This document shows, in pieces, positions 11,264 through 63,824 of a DNA stretch of 64,000 nt. The notes under the pieces are model-generated. The model saw only the letters and a program-made list of their open reading frames with translations. It had not been told where the DNA came from and searched no databases. Source of the stretch: Anaerolineaceae bacterium (lineage in GTDB: Bacteria; Chloroflexota; Anaerolineae; Anaerolineales; Anaerolineaceae); contig JAFPZX010000086.1 in NCBI GenBank assembly GCA_017417055.1, forward strand, positions 44,801 through 108,800. The letters are read 5' to 3'. Each line of letters opens with the position of its first letter. Position 1 is the first letter of the stretch. The translations under genes and the position numbers were made by a program.

Positions 11264-12362
11264 ACCTTCCTTTACATTTGAGCTTCAGGCAGCTGATGGA
11301 GCTGCCCGCGCGGGTGTGTTCCATACACCGCATGGACCGATTCCCACACCGATTTTTGCCCCTGTGGGTACGCAAGCCACCGTTAAAGCGATGACGCCGG
11401 CTCAGCTTTCGGAGCTCGGCTGCTCGCTGGTGCTGGCCAACACCTATCACCTCTTCCTTCGTCCCGGAGAAGATCTTGTGGCGGAGATGGGCGGCCTGCA
11501 CGAATTCATGCAATGGCATGGGCCGATGCTGACGGATTCCGGCGGGTTTCAGGTGTTTTCCCTCGGACCGCTGCGCAAAATCGACGAGGATGGCGTTACC
11601 TTCAAAAGTTATATTGACGGCTCCATGCATCGTCTCACACCGGAGAGTTCCATCGGGGTTCAGGAAAAACTGGGTGCCGACATCATTATGGCTTTTGATG
11701 AATGTGCCGACCCTTTCGACAAAGCCTACAATGAACGGGCGATGGCACGTACGCACCGCTGGCTGGAACGCTGTATCAAAGCCAAACAGCGTCCCGATCA
11801 GGCTTTGTTTGGGATCGTCCAGGGCGGGATCTTTGCGGACCTGCGTGAGGAATCTGCGAAATTTGTCTCCTCTTTCGATCTGCCCGGTTTTGCTATCGGC
11901 GGTCTTTCGGTCGGGGAATCCAAGGAAGACATGAACAAAATGATGGAAGTGGTCACGCCCATCCTGCCGCAGAACAAGCCGCGCTACCTGATGGGAGTCG
12001 GCTCTCCGGAAGACCTGGTCAACGGGATCTGGCGCGGGATCGATTTCTTTGACTGCGTCCTCCCCACCCGACTGGCACGGCATGGCGCCGCGATGACTTT
12101 CAATGGTCGGCTGAACATGGTCAATCAGAAATATACCCATGACCCGAAGCCGATCGTAGAAGGCTGCACCTGCTACACCTGTCAGCATTTTTCCCGGGCA
12201 TACATCCGTCATCTGCTCCAGAACAAGGAGATGCTGGCTGCCACACTCCTTTCCATCCACAACATCCATACACTGGAAGAGCTCGTCCGTCAGGCACGCG
12301 CGGCCATTTTCGCCGGAACCTATGATGCCTTCGCGGAAAATTTCCTTGCCAATTACCATTAA
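11253..12362 (+). CDS. tgt: tRNA-guanine transglycosylase
   Basis: Exchanges guanine-34 in tRNAs with GUN anticodons for preQ1, a central step of queuosine synthesis. D95 (LTDSGGFQVF), the predicted nucleophile D267 (FDCVLPTRLARHG), GGLSVGE near 216-222 and the zinc ligands C305, C307, C310 with a downstream His (H336) are all present. The length, 369 aa, is typical. AAGGAG lies 10 nt upstream of the ATG, inside the previous gene, which it overlaps by 11 nt. queG, a later queuosine step, lies at 61.8 kb; the preQ1 synthesis genes are not in the window. Confidence 0.97.
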   Translation: MCSEPSFTFELQAADGAARAGVFHTPHGPIPTPIFAPVGTQATVKAMTPAQLSELGCSLVLANTYHLFLRPGEDLVAEMGGLHEFMQWHGPMLTDSGGFQVFSLGPLRKIDEDGVTFKSYIDGSMHRLTPESSIGVQEKLGADIIMAFDECADPFDKAYNERAMARTHRWLERCIKAKQRPDQALFGIVQGGIFADLREESAKFVSSFDLPGFAIGGLSVGESKEDMNKMMEVVTPILPQNKPRYLMGVGSPEDLVNGIWRGIDFFDCVLPTRLARHGAAMTFNGRLNMVNQKYTHDPKPIVEGCTCYTCQHFSRAYIRHLLQNKEMLAATLLSIHNIHTLEELVRQARAAIFAGTYDAFAENFLANYH

Positions 12363-19255: not shown

Positions 19256-19440
19256 ATTCCCTTTTTAGACGCAAGACATATGACGCATGACGTAAGATGT
19301 CATCCTTCACATCTAATCCGACATACATTTAACATCTAACGTCTACCATCTAACATCTATCATCATACGTCTTACGTCATAAGTCGTTCTTCATTCGCCA
19401 CTCTTCAAACTACTTCTTACTTCTTATTCCTTACTACTTA
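19256..19440. repeat. Family D low-complexity repeat, copy 1
   Basis: Minus-strand reading is a chain of AAGTAAG, GACGTAAGACG and GATGATAGATG words. It starts at the AAG-TAA that ends trmO (minus strand, 19443-19438) and runs to the start of the GT51 gene. Confidence 0.75.
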
Positions 19441-21919: not shown

Positions 21920-22594
21920 ATGCCATTTTCAGCTGAATCACAGGATTTTCTATTTGAAGTTTGGTCCCGCAATGACCGCGCCTGGTATCATGAGAACAAA
22001 GAATTTGGAAAAAAAGTTCTCATGGAACCCTTCGCGCAATTCGTCCGGGAGCTCCAGCCGACCATGCTCACCATTGACCCGGGCATGGACTGCTCGGAAA
22101 AACGTATCGCCCGCGTCTATCGGGATGCACGGGTGATCGGGAACGGTCCTTTTTTCCGTGACCACATCTGGTGCACCATGGGACGAGGAAAAGATGCCAT
22201 GTATGGATATCATTCCTACTTTTTTGAACTTTCCAGCGATAGATTTCGTTATGGGATGGGATATTACATCCCCGCAAAAGAAACGCTGGAGAGGATCCGG
22301 GAGATGATCCTCATGGAAGACAAAACCTTCCGCAAGGCTTTCAGCACACACAAGAAGCAGAAAGTCTACACGCTGGTGGGCGAAAGCTATAAACGCAATC
22401 ATTTTCCGGACGCTCCGGAGAAATATTGGGACTGGCTCAACCGCAAAACTTTTTGCTGGATCCGCGAAAGCAGCGACACCTCGCTGCTGTACAGTGAAAC
22501 CCTGTCGGAAAAGATCGCTGCGGATTTCCTGCTGATTGCCCCAATCTACCAATTCTTCCTCAAAGCGGAGGAGGAAGCGAGAAGCGAGAAGTAA
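21920..22594 (+). CDS. DUF2461-family protein
   Basis: A 224-aa cytoplasmic protein of the DUF2461 family, whose function is not established. Typical features are FEVWSRNDRAWYHENK near the N-terminus, KRIARVYRDARVIGNGPFFRD (about residues 62-82, typical Arg-rich core) and GYYIPAKETLERIREMI. It follows xth by 6 nt. The stop TAA (22592-22594) lies in an AAGTAAG word that opens a family D repeat, and the last residues (EEEARSEK) are encoded by repeat-like sequence (GCGAGAAGCGAGAAG). The C-terminus may therefore have been remodelled. Confidence 0.85.
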   Translation: MPFSAESQDFLFEVWSRNDRAWYHENKEFGKKVLMEPFAQFVRELQPTMLTIDPGMDCSEKRIARVYRDARVIGNGPFFRDHIWCTMGRGKDAMYGYHSYFFELSSDRFRYGMGYYIPAKETLERIREMILMEDKTFRKAFSTHKKQKVYTLVGESYKRNHFPDAPEKYWDWLNRKTFCWIRESSDTSLLYSETLSEKIAADFLLIAPIYQFFLKAEEEARSEK

Positions 22595-22690
22595 GAATGA
22601 CGTAAGACGTAAGACGTATTACGGATGATAGATGAAGATTGAAGATTGATGTATGATGTATAAAGGATGACGTATGATGAATGGACTATG
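22585..22690. repeat. Family D low-complexity repeat, copy 2
   Basis: GACGTAAGACGTAAGACG, GATGATAGATGAAG and GATGTATGATG words. It begins at the AAG-TAA end of the DUF2461 gene and resembles copy 1 at 19256-19440 read on the minus strand. Confidence 0.7.
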
Positions 22691-22728: not shown

Positions 22729-23418
22729 ATGAAAAGAATCGTTTATTTCATGCTTATTGCAACGCTGCTTTGCACAGCTGCGGCGGTATGTGCCGCACCG
22801 GAAATTGACAGTCAAATCGAGCTGATCGCCCAAAACAAAGACCTGTGGAAACAGGACATTGAATTCGGTACCTGGGGCTATACGATCACCGATCTGGACC
22901 ATAACGGCAGACTGGAAATCATTTCCGCTTCGGTGCAGGGAACCGGGTTCTATACCTACATCTTCGCCTATGAAGTCAATGAAGAAGGGAACGGCCTGAC
23001 AGAATTATACGATCCGGAGAAATCGAATTACGACTCCGCTCCGGATATTATGGTCAGCACAATCCCGGTTTTTCATGATGAAAAAGAGAACCGTTATTAT
23101 TACATCTTTGACGACATGGTCCGCAGCGGTATGGCGGAATATTATGAAAACAAACGTGCTGTTTCCATCGTCGATGGAACCTGGCAGGAAACCCCTTTGG
23201 CATATAAAACCACCATCTATACCGACGCAGAACATTACAGCATCAGCTGTACCGATGCCAATCAAAACCCCATCAGCGAAGCCCAATTCAGCTCCATTGC
23301 GGAAAGTGTTTTCAGCAACCTGGAAAAGGATGAAGTCCAATTCAATTGGATCATGACCGACAGTGAATCATTCAACGCGCTTACACCCGGCCAGATAGCC
23401 GAAAGCCTGAAGAAGTAA
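22729..23418 (+). CDS. Secreted protein of unknown function
   Basis: A protein of 229 aa with a clear signal peptide (cleavage near AVCAA, residues 19-23). AAAGGAG lies 8 nt before the ATG. DLDHNGRLEIISAS (about residues 63-76) looks like a calcium-binding or FG-GAP-type loop, as in proteins with the DxDxNG pattern. The rest has no family I recognise. It is isolated between two family D repeats, and its stop TAA (23416-23418) is the start of the second one (AAGAAGTAAGGAG). An extracellular location is likely. Confidence 0.75.
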   Translation: MKRIVYFMLIATLLCTAAAVCAAPEIDSQIELIAQNKDLWKQDIEFGTWGYTITDLDHNGRLEIISASVQGTGFYTYIFAYEVNEEGNGLTELYDPEKSNYDSAPDIMVSTIPVFHDEKENRYYYIFDDMVRSGMAEYYENKRAVSIVDGTWQETPLAYKTTIYTDAEHYSISCTDANQNPISEAQFSSIAESVFSNLEKDEVQFNWIMTDSESFNALTPGQIAESLKK

Positions 23419-23640
23419 GGAGTTAGGAGGGTGAAGAGTGAAGTTAAGATCGAGAAGTAAGGAGAAAAAGTAAGGAGTATGGAATGCGCAGTGTGAAGTG
23501 TGAAGCTAAGTAAGGAGTAAGAAGTAAGGAGTGCGAATTAAGATATTTACCTGCACACTGCACTCTGCACTCTTCACTCTTCACACTGCATTCTGCACAC
23601 TTCACACTATCTACTGACAACTGGCCACTGACAACTAATA
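23413..23640. repeat. Family D repeat, copy 3 (composite)
   Basis: First block: GGAGT, AAGTAAGGAG and GTGTGAAG words. Then come CACTGCACTCTGCAC and CTTCACAC words forming inverted arms. Last comes CTACTGACAACTGGCCACTG. The block order is the reverse complement of the copy inside queG. It starts at the AAG-TAA end of the upstream gene. Confidence 0.8.
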
Positions 23641-60180: not shown

Positions 60181-60329
60181 AGAAAAGGTAACTGTTCAAA
60201 ACATGTTTCACCAAAGTATTCGGACAATCCCCTCCGGCTCGATACCGAGTCTGCAGAGACAGTCCCGATATGGAATAGATACAAAGAAAGACTTGTTATT
60301 TTGAACCATTGAAAGGCCGAACCAGCAAT

Positions 60330-61094
60330 ATGAAAAAAGCCCACCGGACAATCGCAAAACGAAGCATCCCGATGCTTTTCACCGCGATTCTCCTTTCCGC
60401 CTGCGGAAATGCAGCCACACCGGAACCGACCGTTGACATGAACGTATTTCCGACAACAATCGCACAGACCATGGTGGCAGAATACACCGCCTCAGCTGTT
60501 GTTTTACCCACCGATGCTCCTGTTTCAACCGATATTCCGGCGTCGGGATCTGAAAACAGTACCGGATCAGTTGTCGTATTGCCGATTTCCCCAGCCAACA
60601 GCAGCAGCGATATGATCGTCAATCCTTATACGGATCCCGCTGCCGCAACGGAAGAGCCTGTGATCATCCGAAATAACAATCTGCCTGAGGTTTCATCCAA
60701 TGTGTCGATTACGCTTCCGACCGCTGCCGTTCCCACGGCCGCCAGAACAGGGAACGAACATGGAGACAAAGCCTCGTACGATTCGCAGTCACCATTGGAT
60801 GGCGTCCATGTTGAACGCGGATCTGAATTTGACGTCATCTGGTACCTGAAAAATACCGGTTCCACCACCTGGACAACGGATTACTGTCTGCGGTATTTTA
60901 CGGGAACCGATTTTACAAAACCGGGGAAAACCCGTTACTATCTCAACGAACCGGTTCCACCGGACACGATCGGCAAATGCATTGTGGACGCACTCGCGCC
61001 GGAAGAGCCCGGAACCTATAAAATGTCAGTCGTTCTTGGAAATGAGAATGACGAAAACTTTTTCATTGTCGACATCACAATCGTTGTCGACTGA
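60330..61094 (+). CDS. Lipoprotein with NBR1-type Ig-like domain
   Basis: A protein of 254 aa. It has a basic N-terminus, a hydrophobic core and a lipobox LLSAC with the acylated Cys near residue 25, so it is anchored on the outer face of the membrane. A Thr/Pro/Ser-rich linker of about 110 residues leads to one Ig-like domain (residues about 145-254, NTGSTTWTTDYCLRYF, NENDENFF). The last 110 residues match the secreted protein at 63.2 kb in 75 positions by hand count. The ATG at 60330 is chosen over a TTG at 60309. The next gene follows in 12 nt. Partner and function unknown. Confidence 0.75.
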   Translation: MKKAHRTIAKRSIPMLFTAILLSACGNAATPEPTVDMNVFPTTIAQTMVAEYTASAVVLPTDAPVSTDIPASGSENSTGSVVVLPISPANSSSDMIVNPYTDPAAATEEPVIIRNNNLPEVSSNVSITLPTAAVPTAARTGNEHGDKASYDSQSPLDGVHVERGSEFDVIWYLKNTGSTTWTTDYCLRYFTGTDFTKPGKTRYYLNEPVPPDTIGKCIVDALAPEEPGTYKMSVVLGNENDENFFIVDITIVVD

Positions 61095-61106
61095 TCGGAG
61101 GATTTC

Positions 61107-61703
61107 ATGAAGAAAACTGTTTTGATCTGTACGCTTTTGATCGCTGTCCTTGCCGGCTTTTCCGCCGCACTTGCGGACAACACGCAGGACCTGATCAACA
61201 TGGTCCGAACGGAAGCCGCGGCTACTGTCGTCGCCGAAATTCAGCAGACGCTTGAATCTGAAAACATCGAAATCATTGTCAAAAACCAGAGCACCCCTTC
61301 CCCGCTCATCAGCTCGGGATTCATCTGGGGGTCCTGGAAACCGACACCAACCTACTATTCCTATCAGGCAAAGCTGGTCGGGCAGAACATGAACTACATG
61401 CACTATCCTCACGGTCAGCAGTTCCGCATCAACTGGACCGTTCGCAATACCGGACCGCTTCCCTGGGACACACAGTTTTACTTCCGCTATGTGCAGGGGC
61501 AGGGTTCCCTGGATGGCGACCGGTATATGCTCCCTGCGGTCGTTGAACGAGGCGACACCATCACCTTCTCCCGTGGATTTGAGTGCGCTGAGGAACCGGG
61601 CATCTACAACTCCTACTGGGAACTGGTCGACAATGACGGCGTTGTGATTTTGGACAACATCTGGGTCGGCTGGCAGGTGGATGACTGGCGTGATTTTGAA
61701 TAA
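61107..61703 (+). CDS. Secreted protein with NBR1-type Ig-like domain
   Basis: A protein of 198 aa with signal peptide (cleavage near ALA, residues 21-23). A short helical region precedes an Ig-like domain with NWTVRNTGPLPWDTQFYFRY and EEPGIYNSYWELVDNDG. Aromatic residues are many (GWQVDDW end). GGAGG lies 7 nt before the ATG; it forms an operon with the lipoprotein gene 12 nt upstream. More distant from the two close paralogues at 60.3 and 63.2 kb. Probably extracellular; function unknown. Confidence 0.75.
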   Translation: MKKTVLICTLLIAVLAGFSAALADNTQDLINMVRTEAAATVVAEIQQTLESENIEIIVKNQSTPSPLISSGFIWGSWKPTPTYYSYQAKLVGQNMNYMHYPHGQQFRINWTVRNTGPLPWDTQFYFRYVQGQGSLDGDRYMLPAVVERGDTITFSRGFECAEEPGIYNSYWELVDNDGVVILDNIWVGWQVDDWRDFE

Positions 61704-61769: not shown

Positions 61770-62924
61770 ATGCAGACAAATCAAATAAAGGAATTCATAA
61801 GAGCCGAGTCCAAAAAGCTCGGCTTTTGTGTTTGCGGATTCACGAACGCGGAACCGTGTGCTGACTTTGTGCGCTATCAGCAATGGCTTGAAACCGATTC
61901 CCTCGGCACCATGGCGTACCTGAAACGGGAAGATACGCTCGCTAAACGTGCCGATCCCCGTGCACTGCTGCCGGAAGCACAAAGCATCTGCGTACTGGGG
62001 GTACCGATGGCACTCAGACCTGCTCCCAGCGAACCGGAAGTTGCATCCTATGCCTGGTATGCTGATTACCATGAAACGATCCTTTCCATGGCGGAAAAAC
62101 TGGTTGAAAAGGTTCGTCAGCAGTCAGCAGTCAGTGGACAGTGGCCAGTGGACAGTGACCAGCAGTCAGCAGTCAGCAGTCAGTGCTCAGTAGTCAGTGA
62201 CAAGCTGTCAGCTGTCAGCAGTCAGTGCTCAGTTGTCAGTGACCAGCAGTCAGCGGTCAGCAACCATCATTCTTCACTCCTCACTCCTTACTCCTCACTT
62301 CCAACTCCTCACTCCTCACTCCTCACTCCTAACCAGCTCCCAGACCCAAGCCCCCAACAACCTGTTTTTTCATACCGCATCTGCATCGATTCTTCACCGA
62401 TTCTGGAACGCAGTCTGGCCGTCCGCGCGGGACTGGGCTGGATCGGGAAGAGCTCCATGTTTATCCATCCGAAATATGGATCCCGCTTGTTCCTATGCGA
62501 AATACTACTCAACATTCCGATTGAGCCGGACACACCTTACACGAAAGATGGCTGCGGGAGCTGCCTGCGCTGCACAAATACCTGCCCGAATCACTGCATT
62601 GATCCTGAGAGCCGTACCATCCGTGCCGACCACTGCATTTCCTACCTCACCATTGAACACAAAGGGGAGTTTACGCCGGAACAAAGCAAACTGGTTGGGA
62701 CACATCTTTTCGGATGCGATGAATGTCTGCGTGTCTGCCCTTGGAATTCCCGTGATATCGGCGAATCTCCTCTTCCGCTCGCCGGTGCTGTACCGCAGCT
62801 CAGCGACTATGATCTGACCGACATGGAATTCAAGGAAAAATTCCGCAATTCCCCCGTCCTGCGCACCAAAGCCAAAGGACTGCGCAGAAACATTGAGGCG
62901 GCGGTGAAGAATAGTAACAAGTAA
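61770..62924 (+). CDS. queG: Epoxyqueuosine reductase with in-frame repeat insertion
   Basis: Reduces epoxyqueuosine in tRNA to queuosine, using cobalamin and two [4Fe-4S] clusters. From the ATG at 61770 the protein is 384 aa. The catalytic Asp is D207 (CIDSSPILERSLAVRAG). Cluster ligands are C262, C265, C268, C272 and C316, C319, C323, with a further Cys at 289. Residues about 117-197 are a low-complexity insert (SAVSSQCSVVSD and SSLLTP units) encoded by a family D repeat. It sits in the surface linker between two conserved parts, where homologues have roughly 10-15 residues. The frame is kept, so the enzyme may be active. tgt lies at 11.3 kb. Confidence 0.9.
   Translation: MQTNQIKEFIRAESKKLGFCVCGFTNAEPCADFVRYQQWLETDSLGTMAYLKREDTLAKRADPRALLPEAQSICVLGVPMALRPAPSEPEVASYAWYADYHETILSMAEKLVEKVRQQSAVSGQWPVDSDQQSAVSSQCSVVSDKLSAVSSQCSVVSDQQSAVSNHHSSLLTPYSSLPTPHSSLLTPNQLPDPSPQQPVFSYRICIDSSPILERSLAVRAGLGWIGKSSMFIHPKYGSRLFLCEILLNIPIEPDTPYTKDGCGSCLRCTNTCPNHCIDPESRTIRADHCISYLTIEHKGEFTPEQSKLVGTHLFGCDECLRVCPWNSRDIGESPLPLAGAVPQLSDYDLTDMEFKEKFRNSPVLRTKAKGLRRNIEAAVKNSNK
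62113..62345 (+). repeat. Family D composite repeat inside queG
   Basis: Block 1 (to about 62265): CAGCAGTCAGCAGTCAGTG and CAGTGACCAGCAGTCAG words. Block 2 (to about 62330): CTCCTCACTCCTTACTCC words. Both blocks occur, in reverse order and orientation, in the intergenic copy at 23413-23640. Confidence 0.85.
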
Positions 62925-63068
62925 AAAGTATTCAGTGTGAAGTTGAGATTAAATAATAAGATGTGTGCTATCTTCAGAGTGCAGGTAATGAATAAGAAGT
63001 GAGGAGTTAAAAGTTAGGATTCAAATTAACTTCACACTGCACACTTCACTATACACACTAAAAACTGA
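62919..63068. repeat. Family D repeat, copy 5
   Basis: AAGTAAAAAG at the queG stop, then GTGTGAAGTTGAG, AATAAGAAGTGAGGAG, and the inverted CTTCACACTGCACACTTCAC. Same layout of arms as at 23413-23640. Confidence 0.75.
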
Positions 63069-63110: not shown

Positions 63111-63139
63111 TTGGAATATGGCGAAACTTATGATAAAAT
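63111..63139 (+). promoter_or_regulatory. Promoter of the Ig-like protein gene
   Basis: TTGGAA (63111-63116), 17-nt spacer, TAAAAT (63134-63139) with a TGA before it (extended -10). It is 34 nt before the start codon. Confidence 0.55.
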
Positions 63140-63173
63140 CTATAATCAGGAAATAAAGAGAAGGAGATTCACA

Positions 63174-63824
63174 ATGAAGAAAATATTGTTTTTGCTGCTT
63201 TTCTGTTGTATAGTGGCAGCGCCGGTGATGGCTCAAACCCAACCTGTGGATGAGTTGTCCGGCCTTTCCAACCAGCAGCTTCTGGCGGTTTATGACGCAG
63301 TTGTCGGCGAGATCCAAAAACGGGGCGTTGACACATCCGCACAGAACGTTCGTGACCAGGCTGTCGTTTTCGGACAGAATGTCCACATTCAAACCGGGCA
63401 GCTTTCCGTCTGCCTGCCGACACCGGTCCCGGCAAACAACACGACTATCCAGCTGCCCATCGCCCCGACAGCCACACCCAATGCACAGTCCGGCGACAAA
63501 GCATCTTATGACTCACAAACCCCGGTGGACGGTACGCATGTGCAGCGCGGACAGATTTTTGATATTACCTGGTACCTGCTGAACACAGGCACAACCACCT
63601 GGACAACAGATTACTGCGTCCGCTTTTTCAGCAACACAAAATTTACAAAACCCGGAAAAGACCGTTACTATCTTGACCAGCCTGTTGCGCCAAACACTGT
63701 CGGAGCATGCAGCATTGACGCAGTTGCTCCATCTACACCCGGTACCTATACCATGGCAGTCGTTCTCAGCAACGAAAATGATGAAAACTTCTATGTGATG
63801 GATGTGACGATCATCGTAGATTAG
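63174..63824 (+). CDS. Secreted protein with NBR1-type Ig-like domain, paralogue of the lipoprotein
   Basis: A protein of 216 aa with signal peptide (cleavage near VMAQ, residues 18-21) and a short helical segment (LSGLSNQQLLAVYDAVVGEI). The C-terminal 110 residues are an Ig-like domain nearly the same as in the lipoprotein at 60.3 kb (YDSQTPVDGTHVQRG, NTGTTTWTTDYC, NENDENFY). The ATG at 63174 is set by AAGGAG 8 nt upstream. It has its own promoter and terminator. Unlike the paralogue it lacks a lipobox and is likely released. Function unknown. Confidence 0.78.
   Translation: MKKILFLLLFCCIVAAPVMAQTQPVDELSGLSNQQLLAVYDAVVGEIQKRGVDTSAQNVRDQAVVFGQNVHIQTGQLSVCLPTPVPANNTTIQLPIAPTATPNAQSGDKASYDSQTPVDGTHVQRGQIFDITWYLLNTGTTTWTTDYCVRFFSNTKFTKPGKDRYYLDQPVAPNTVGACSIDAVAPSTPGTYTMAVVLSNENDENFYVMDVTIIVD

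Follow-up and report, generated by a model that had tools for sequence, protein, structure and literature searches.

The queG gene of an Anaerolineaceae bacterium contains an in-frame insert (window positions 62112-62347) that consists of two arrays of degenerate 7-bp units, or heptads; the window is the whole stretch of 64,000 nucleotides that was analyzed. Most probably, a coding copy of a two-armed heptad element forms the insert, which lies at, or has replaced, a permissive loop of QueG and is tolerated there. Such an element, with AG-type units on the 5' side and CT-type units on the 3' side as in many intergenic regions of the species and its nearest relatives, would have grown at or replaced a loop that was already permissive, and only readable, frame-keeping outcomes would survive at that site. 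The insert would be tolerated because its units can be translated on this strand in the reading frame used, because its total length keeps the frame, and because the site falls after the conserved N-terminal region and before the strand with the invariant aspartate. The arrays themselves presumably lengthen by slippage or unequal copying. The features are collected in the table, in which G000 denotes this genome, other G-numbers denote compared genomes, and L-numbers denote loci.

Table. Coordinates of queG, its insert and related features (window positions unless a locus is named).
Feature	Position	Strand	Remarks
queG	61770..62924	+	ORF opens at GTG 61710; stop 62922-62924; frame open through the repeat
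AG-type heptad array, first arm of the insert	62112..62246	+	CAGNNNN units, 42-bp superperiod; read as SAVSSQ/CSVVSD-like peptide
CT-type heptad array, second arm of the insert	62257..62347	+	TCACTCC / ACTCCTC-type units; read as HSSLLTP-like peptide
Double 4Fe-4S domain PF13484	62553..62747	+	Residues 282-346 of the frame from 61710; downstream of the insert, same frame
Degenerate heptad-like intergenic sequence past queG	62920..63060	+	AGT-rich then ACT-rich by eye; detector silent
tgt, tRNA-guanine transglycosylase (queuosine pathway)	11277..12362	+	Same contig; TIGR00430, 510.6 bits, over cut-off
CT-type heptad array	19322..19385	+	ACATCTA-like units, intergenic
AG-type heptad array	22572..22677	+	Overlaps the end of a predicted gene
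Intergenic two-armed heptad element	23409..23609	+	AG-type 23409-23543, CT-type 23545-23609
CAGGTGT-type heptad array in gatA of sister species G005	L112:17994-18047		In frame

The limits of the two arms in queG derive from a lag-7 self-match detector. On the insert, TRF reports a 42-bp period at 62118-62262 (86% matches), a 14-bp period at 62116-62262 (69% matches) and a 7-bp period at 62274-62330 (84% matches), and the period-7 score of the queG linker is reached by none of 1000 codon shuffles. The claim of the first-pass annotation that a repeat lies within queG without breaking the frame is thus confirmed by the sequence, the open frame, TRF and the detector. Counted from ATG 61770, the insert spans approximately residues 115-192, a near recount of the residues 117-197 originally given.

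Heptad arrays form a family across this genome. A strict lag-7 search yields 71 arrays in 407,210 bases, a sample consisting mostly of stretches picked for containing matches. Control lags in the same 407 kb yield no arrays at lags 4, 5, 8-11, 13 and 15, one at lag 6 and three at lag 12, while 39 of the 41 arrays at lag 14 overlap lag-7 arrays. Three shuffles of the window give no arrays at lags 6, 7 and 8. At a looser setting, 100 kb of the genome not chosen by matches contains five lag-7 arrays and one array each at lags 5 and 11. The 71 strict arrays are distributed among intergenic regions (42), gene edges (25) and the interior of called genes (4); both queG arrays are tallied as intergenic because the gene caller missed queG.

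A search of the genome with the queG insert gives 52 matches, one of which is the insert itself. The heptad array most similar to the queG block (83% over 144 nt) is 285 bp long, lies on C187 (L063:369-653) and has superperiods of 42 and 70 bp; it may be the source or a sister copy of the block. The coexisting unit families include CAGTGGT, AAATAAG, AACTACT, ACTCCTC and AAATCAG, the first four of which lead the commonest exact unit pairs in the sample. The published heptamer TAACTGA is absent from the 30 commonest of these pairs, so the queG-type repeat is of that kind but of another sequence family. The element at 23.4-23.6 kb, initially described as the same two blocks in reverse orientation, is indeed related and two-armed; its units are not identical to those of queG, and since a two-armed layout is strand-symmetric, the reverse orientation amounts to the same layout.

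Comparison with relatives relies on the length of the QueG linker, taken as the segment from DYH to ICID. A QueG protein match is present in 56 of the 61 genomes searched, and the linker was compared at 30 loci. It measures 110 amino acids in G000, 64 in G013, 74 in G006, 41 in G012 and 47 in G005, in contrast with 31-38 amino acids, mostly 33, at the 25 other loci (the shortest, 31, is truncated at the end of a contig). At E 0.001, the insert has DNA matches in five of the 14 genus genomes, and these are the same five, G000, G005, G006, G012 and G013; the loop is not enlarged in the seven other genus mates with a measured linker. QueG of the four repeat-bearing relatives is 64-70% identical to that of G000, compared with at most 48% for the others. 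As the four long-linker relatives are the nearest by QueG identity, the repeat-bearing five look like one clade rather than five independent events.

The estimate of about 80 added residues and the short linker ascribed to QueG homologues both hold for the general family; the four nearest relatives, with linkers of 41-74 amino acids, depart from it, and the excess over the nearest of them is 46. Alignment with close relatives, the check proposed in the first pass, reveals that their linkers are enlarged too, with other sequence. The refuting outcome named in the first pass, close relatives with an unrelated and equally long linker, is thereby observed in part, although none of these linkers is equally long. 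The period-7 score is reached by one (G013) and two (G006) of 1000 codon shuffles. No period-7 signal is detected in the G012 and G005 linkers, where 192 and 551 of 1000 codon shuffles reach the score; loop enlargement therefore does not have to originate from heptads. A CAGT-only pattern is found in four of the 14 genus genomes and is absent in G013 (0 matches vs 5 for the backward control, compared with 64 vs 12 in G000 and 13 vs 7 in G006). The CAGT heptad pattern occurs patchily in the order, in 41 of 301 genomes, with the backward pattern at zero throughout.

The proposal that a repeat entered a tolerated loop and is read through is in agreement with the mainly intergenic placement of the family and with the 25 distant loci that lack enlargement. 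The part to be modified is the single jump: all four nearest relatives have enlarged, different linkers, which are better explained by a permissive loop that grew and had its sequence replaced. We infer that the QueG loop was enlarged before the present array arose. The best-supported account is that array DNA arose at this permissive loop and that, of the outcomes, those that were readable and kept the frame alone survived.

In-frame heptad arrays are also present in other conserved proteins. In GatA of the sister species G005, the segment between conserved blocks is 34 amino acids long, in contrast with 22 in all 13 other genus genomes (+12 amino acids), and the native loop residues look replaced rather than interrupted. 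Outside the genus, in-frame arrays with at least 60 residues on each side occur in MutS-, TrpF-, PurL-, PheT-, PurD- and P-type-ATPase-like ORFs that score above curated cut-offs. PDB alignments of GatA, PurD and MutS have the homologue gapped at the array, and the TrpF array fills a native loop, replacing residues with little added length. Eighteen in-frame array ORFs are found among the matches listed, 10 of which were family-searched and 11 mapped on the coding strand. Seven of the 10, GatA among them, pass the NCBIfam cut-off; L152 and L264 fall below it, and L262 has Pfam matches only. The ORFs outside this map are L188, L224, L226 and L239, which seem spurious; L232, whose array is close to the N-terminus; one of the two in L236; and L238, which belongs to a variable family.

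This variable family of paralogs, of approximately 430 amino acids, includes L079:9757-11031 (+), L072:8099-9370 (-), L073:3895-5055 (+) and their relatives. It is represented by 40 matching stretches in G000, and of the 14 genus genomes only the five that bear the repeat match it. Its members share conserved N- and C-terminal parts connected by hypervariable linkers, several of which are built of heptad units; a Pfam search gave no match above the cut-off. As a separate observation, the loci L152, L201, L210, L213, L234, L236, L241, L262, L263 and L264 harbor in-frame arrays in ORFs of conserved proteins, and their hosts comprise Cyanobacteria, a Deltaproteobacterium, a Bacteroidales, an Acidobacteriota-type genome and relatives of G000 at the order level.

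The order of the arms is consistent among the mapped coding-strand ORFs, namely queG, three members of the variable family and the 11 above. The AG-type arm comes first in 15 of 15, and the CT arm is second in all four ORFs that have one (queG, PurL, PurD and L072). In coding ORFs, the AG-first order fits reading-frame filtering because CAGTGGT-type units are stop-free on the coding strand and their complement is not.

Neighboring arrays in general display the same order. Arrays were labeled AG-type or CT-type by dinucleotide, and neighbors within 300 bp were counted. In G000, an AG-type array is followed by a CT-type array in 34 pairs, and the opposite order occurs in two, one involving an 18-nt tail and the other spanning a gene end. 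The labels were set after G000 had been viewed and the loci of relatives were held out; these give 6:0, 4:0 and 5:0, or 15:0 in all, while held-out stretches of G000 and one G012 contig yielded no pairs. In the queG linkers of relatives, GGATTCA-like units followed by ACCACTG-like units are visible by eye in G013, of which the scripted segmenter flags the AG arm only, the CT arm being assigned by eye; in G006 the segmenter flags an 18-nt piece that is uninformative on the rule.

Beyond the genus, 115 loci among the matches listed, fetched by the CAGT-heptad pattern, give 65:7 at up to 300 bp and 59:2 at up to 150 bp. Their titles name Cyanobacteria, Planctomycetes, Acidobacteria, Bacteroidetes, Chloroflexi, Beggiatoa relatives and others; several of the loci share genera (Okeania, Microcystis), and hence not all are independent. 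An order-level set of 30 loci, among them one from G000 and one from G006, was counted in full and gives 9:0; random non-array stretches, used as a control, give 291:336. By gene context, the counts are 35:1 for tandem, 5:0 for divergent and 3:0 for convergent genes, and 6:1 for unclassed sites. Neighbors of the same type also occur, 8 CT-CT and 7 AG-AG in G000, and 22 CT-CT and 10 AG-AG in the outside loci among the matches listed. The queG insert obeys the AG-then-CT rule though it is far from gene ends, and the arms of one element may belong to different unit families.

This strand rule, extending across unit families and phyla, constrains any model for the origin of the arrays, and it may point to units being added where DNA has broken. 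Under such a model, each side of the break would have its 3' end extended by AG-type 7-bp units in a telomere-like manner, and rejoining of the ends would leave the arrangement gene, AG units, junction, CT units, gene. If true, this would explain why the strand rule holds however the genes are oriented, why the arms can belong to unrelated unit families, why a few native residues are replaced in GatA, and why in-frame scars occasionally occur in essential enzymes across phyla. The idea that heptad arrays are scars of broken ends is nonetheless regarded as unlikely. Fold-back copying of one arm into the other was considered and rejected: in 33 pairs of G000 the arms match at 4.58 of 7 positions compared with 4.53, and 218 of 500 shuffles are as good. 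In the outside loci among the matches listed (59 pairs), the match is 4.49 vs 4.20 of 7 and 2 of 500 shuffles are as good; a unit preference shared within a genome could explain this slight likeness.

The two-armed, strand-symmetric layout resembles the inverted ends of a transposon-like palindromic element, such as a Rickettsia-type element or a MITE, inserted in frame. This resemblance does not extend to the sequences, since in G000 the arms are no more alike than random pairs, and in queG they belong to different families. The RNA fold of the queG insert is no better than that of shuffled sequence (z -0.77), and the GatA loop residues look replaced rather than interrupted, which makes such an element quite improbable. 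A hairpin or terminator role was also tried and rejected, as the folds of the 23.4 kb element (z -0.76) and of the 62.9 kb spacer (z -0.86), like that of the insert, do not improve on those of shuffles.

Genome quality bears on a different alternative, in which intergenic repeat reads were misjoined into queG during assembly. The assembly is a draft of 200 contigs, 85% complete and with 5.5% contamination, and its many similar arrays could mislead assemblers. However, the frame and both conserved halves of queG continue exactly through the insert, and the same loop is enlarged in four relatives, in two of them with period 7. The heptad insert in GatA of another genome and the in-frame arrays in enzymes of several phyla, although mostly in drafts too, make an isolated assembly accident unlikely, and overall an artefact is considered very unlikely.

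The product of queG retains the features of its family. Translation likely starts at ATG 61770 rather than at GTG 61710. The protein scores 219 bits against NCBIfam TIGR00276, the family of QueG (epoxyqueuosine reductase, a tRNA-modifying enzyme; cut-off 200), and thus passes despite the insert. The solved QueG structure 5d08_A aligns on both sides, with residues 21-129 and 224-394 (numbered from 61710) corresponding to residues 29-142 and 159-331 of the chain, which places the insert at approximately residues 143-158 of the structure. Aligned with 22 other QueG sequences, this QueG agrees with them in all 44 invariant columns and in all 65 columns that are at least 90% conserved. The conserved columns kept include D207, which we take to be the catalytic aspartate, and C262/265/268/272/289/316/319/323, presumably the Fe-S ligands, so that conserved QueG sequence on both sides and retention of all these residues, both claimed at the outset, are confirmed. 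The halves flanking the insert are 78% and 71% identical to the QueG halves of G013. Of the other queuosine genes, queA is present above its curated cut-off with an open frame, and the sole stop within the tgt match is codon 362, the gene's own end.

A large low-complexity insert might indicate a pseudogene in the course of decay whose frame no stop has yet interrupted. In contrast, the complete set of invariant and near-invariant columns, the score above the family cut-off, the identity of both halves to G013, and open frames with scores over the cut-off in queA and tgt argue against decay, which is as improbable as an assembly error. To judge from the sequence, a working QueG is probably produced that carries an additional segment, rich first in Ser/Gln/Val and then in Pro/Thr/Leu; the enzyme would remain active, with this segment forming a flexible surface loop. 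The genes adjoining queG (window 60309-61703 and 63111-63824) contain similar tandem domains with NTG..TWTTDYC.RFF-like sequences.

The first-pass annotation further suggested that the stop-free state of both blocks may be selected. The stops in the insert number 0, 1 and 4 in the forward frames and 6 to 9 in the reverse frames. Among other G000 arrays, five supply 440 windows of 147 nt, of which 16 are open, and one supplies 110 windows of 231 nt, none of them open; random sequence of the same composition is open in 10 of 200 and 1 of 200 cases, respectively. An open frame of the insert's length is rare for an array and not rarer than for random sequence; arrays are thus not specially stop-free, and the suggestion is not needed. 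If queG is still needed, an unusually open frame is expected, and survival of a gene still in use explains the frame without selection for coding by the repeat itself. The 42-bp superperiod was also discarded as evidence of frame selection, since the intergenic C187 array peaks at 42 and 70 alike (0.84); in the queG array this superperiod is frame-neutral. Degenerate repeat units usually slip less. A phase-variable contingency locus, in which gain or loss of 7-bp units switches QueG by frameshift, would draw on the fact that 7 is not a multiple of 3, so that single-unit slippage would break the frame, but the queG units are degenerate, and this is the least probable alternative of all.

Arrays within conserved enzymes, together with close relatives that lack them, provide before-and-after sites for studying how arrays start. 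They also suggest that conserved proteins may gain new loops from heptad DNA. Heptamer arrays have been known for decades, and we know of no accepted origin for them. Among known systems, the STRR heptamers of heterocystous cyanobacteria are short tandem 7-bp repeats, as are the arrays analyzed here, and have been described as intergenic typing markers. The Rickettsia palindromic elements are a repeat family found in frame in conserved proteins and consist of palindromes of conserved sequence; the arms in queG, unlike these, are degenerate direct repeats with no extra folding. A literature search covering titles and the beginnings of abstracts, with few subscription journals, found no report of heptad arrays inside conserved enzymes. 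Heptamers in ORFs are already known, and what is new is that an element with two arms lies within a conserved enzyme and can be set against close relatives.

The amino-acid tandem repeats of Borgs, found between genes and in ORFs, produce mostly disordered segments and are the nearest case found of repeats that create new disordered regions (PMC9879509). Their ORF repeats are perfect with units divisible by three, whereas the queG units are 7 bp long and degenerate (PMC9879509). The GGGAATC heptads of Xanthomonas form 70 and 75 convergent pairs on plus and minus strands, with rare intragenic copies, and the GGGGA(C/T)T heptads of Nostoc form few pairs; in all three genomes, the G-rich repeats lie nearer the 5' neighboring ORF, whatever its direction (PMC4692102). 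This is the same geometry as the AG-to-CT rule, and the units there are of other sequence and form G-quadruplexes (PMC4692102). New here is a strand rule counted over several other unit families and many phyla and found also within a gene (PMC4692102).

A close counterpart is the TAACTGA heptamer of Beggiatoaceae, Cyanobacteria and Bacteroidetes, which is mostly intergenic and present at many loci (MacGregor 2015, PMC4679880). It was the only paper found in a literature search for five repeat peptides. Copies within ORFs are described mostly from hypothetical proteins or protein ends, with the exception of an RNA polymerase beta-prime-like ORF, and the readable orientation translates to LSVISYQ repeats (PMC4679880). 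The queG repeat shares with TAACTGA a 7-bp tandem unit, a mainly intergenic distribution with some copies in ORFs, and the same class of peptide, SAVSSQ/CSVVSD corresponding to LSVISYQ (PMC4679880). Compared with those ORF copies, the queG array differs in its position within a conserved enzyme, in its two arms of different families, and in the close relatives with which it can be compared (PMC4679880).
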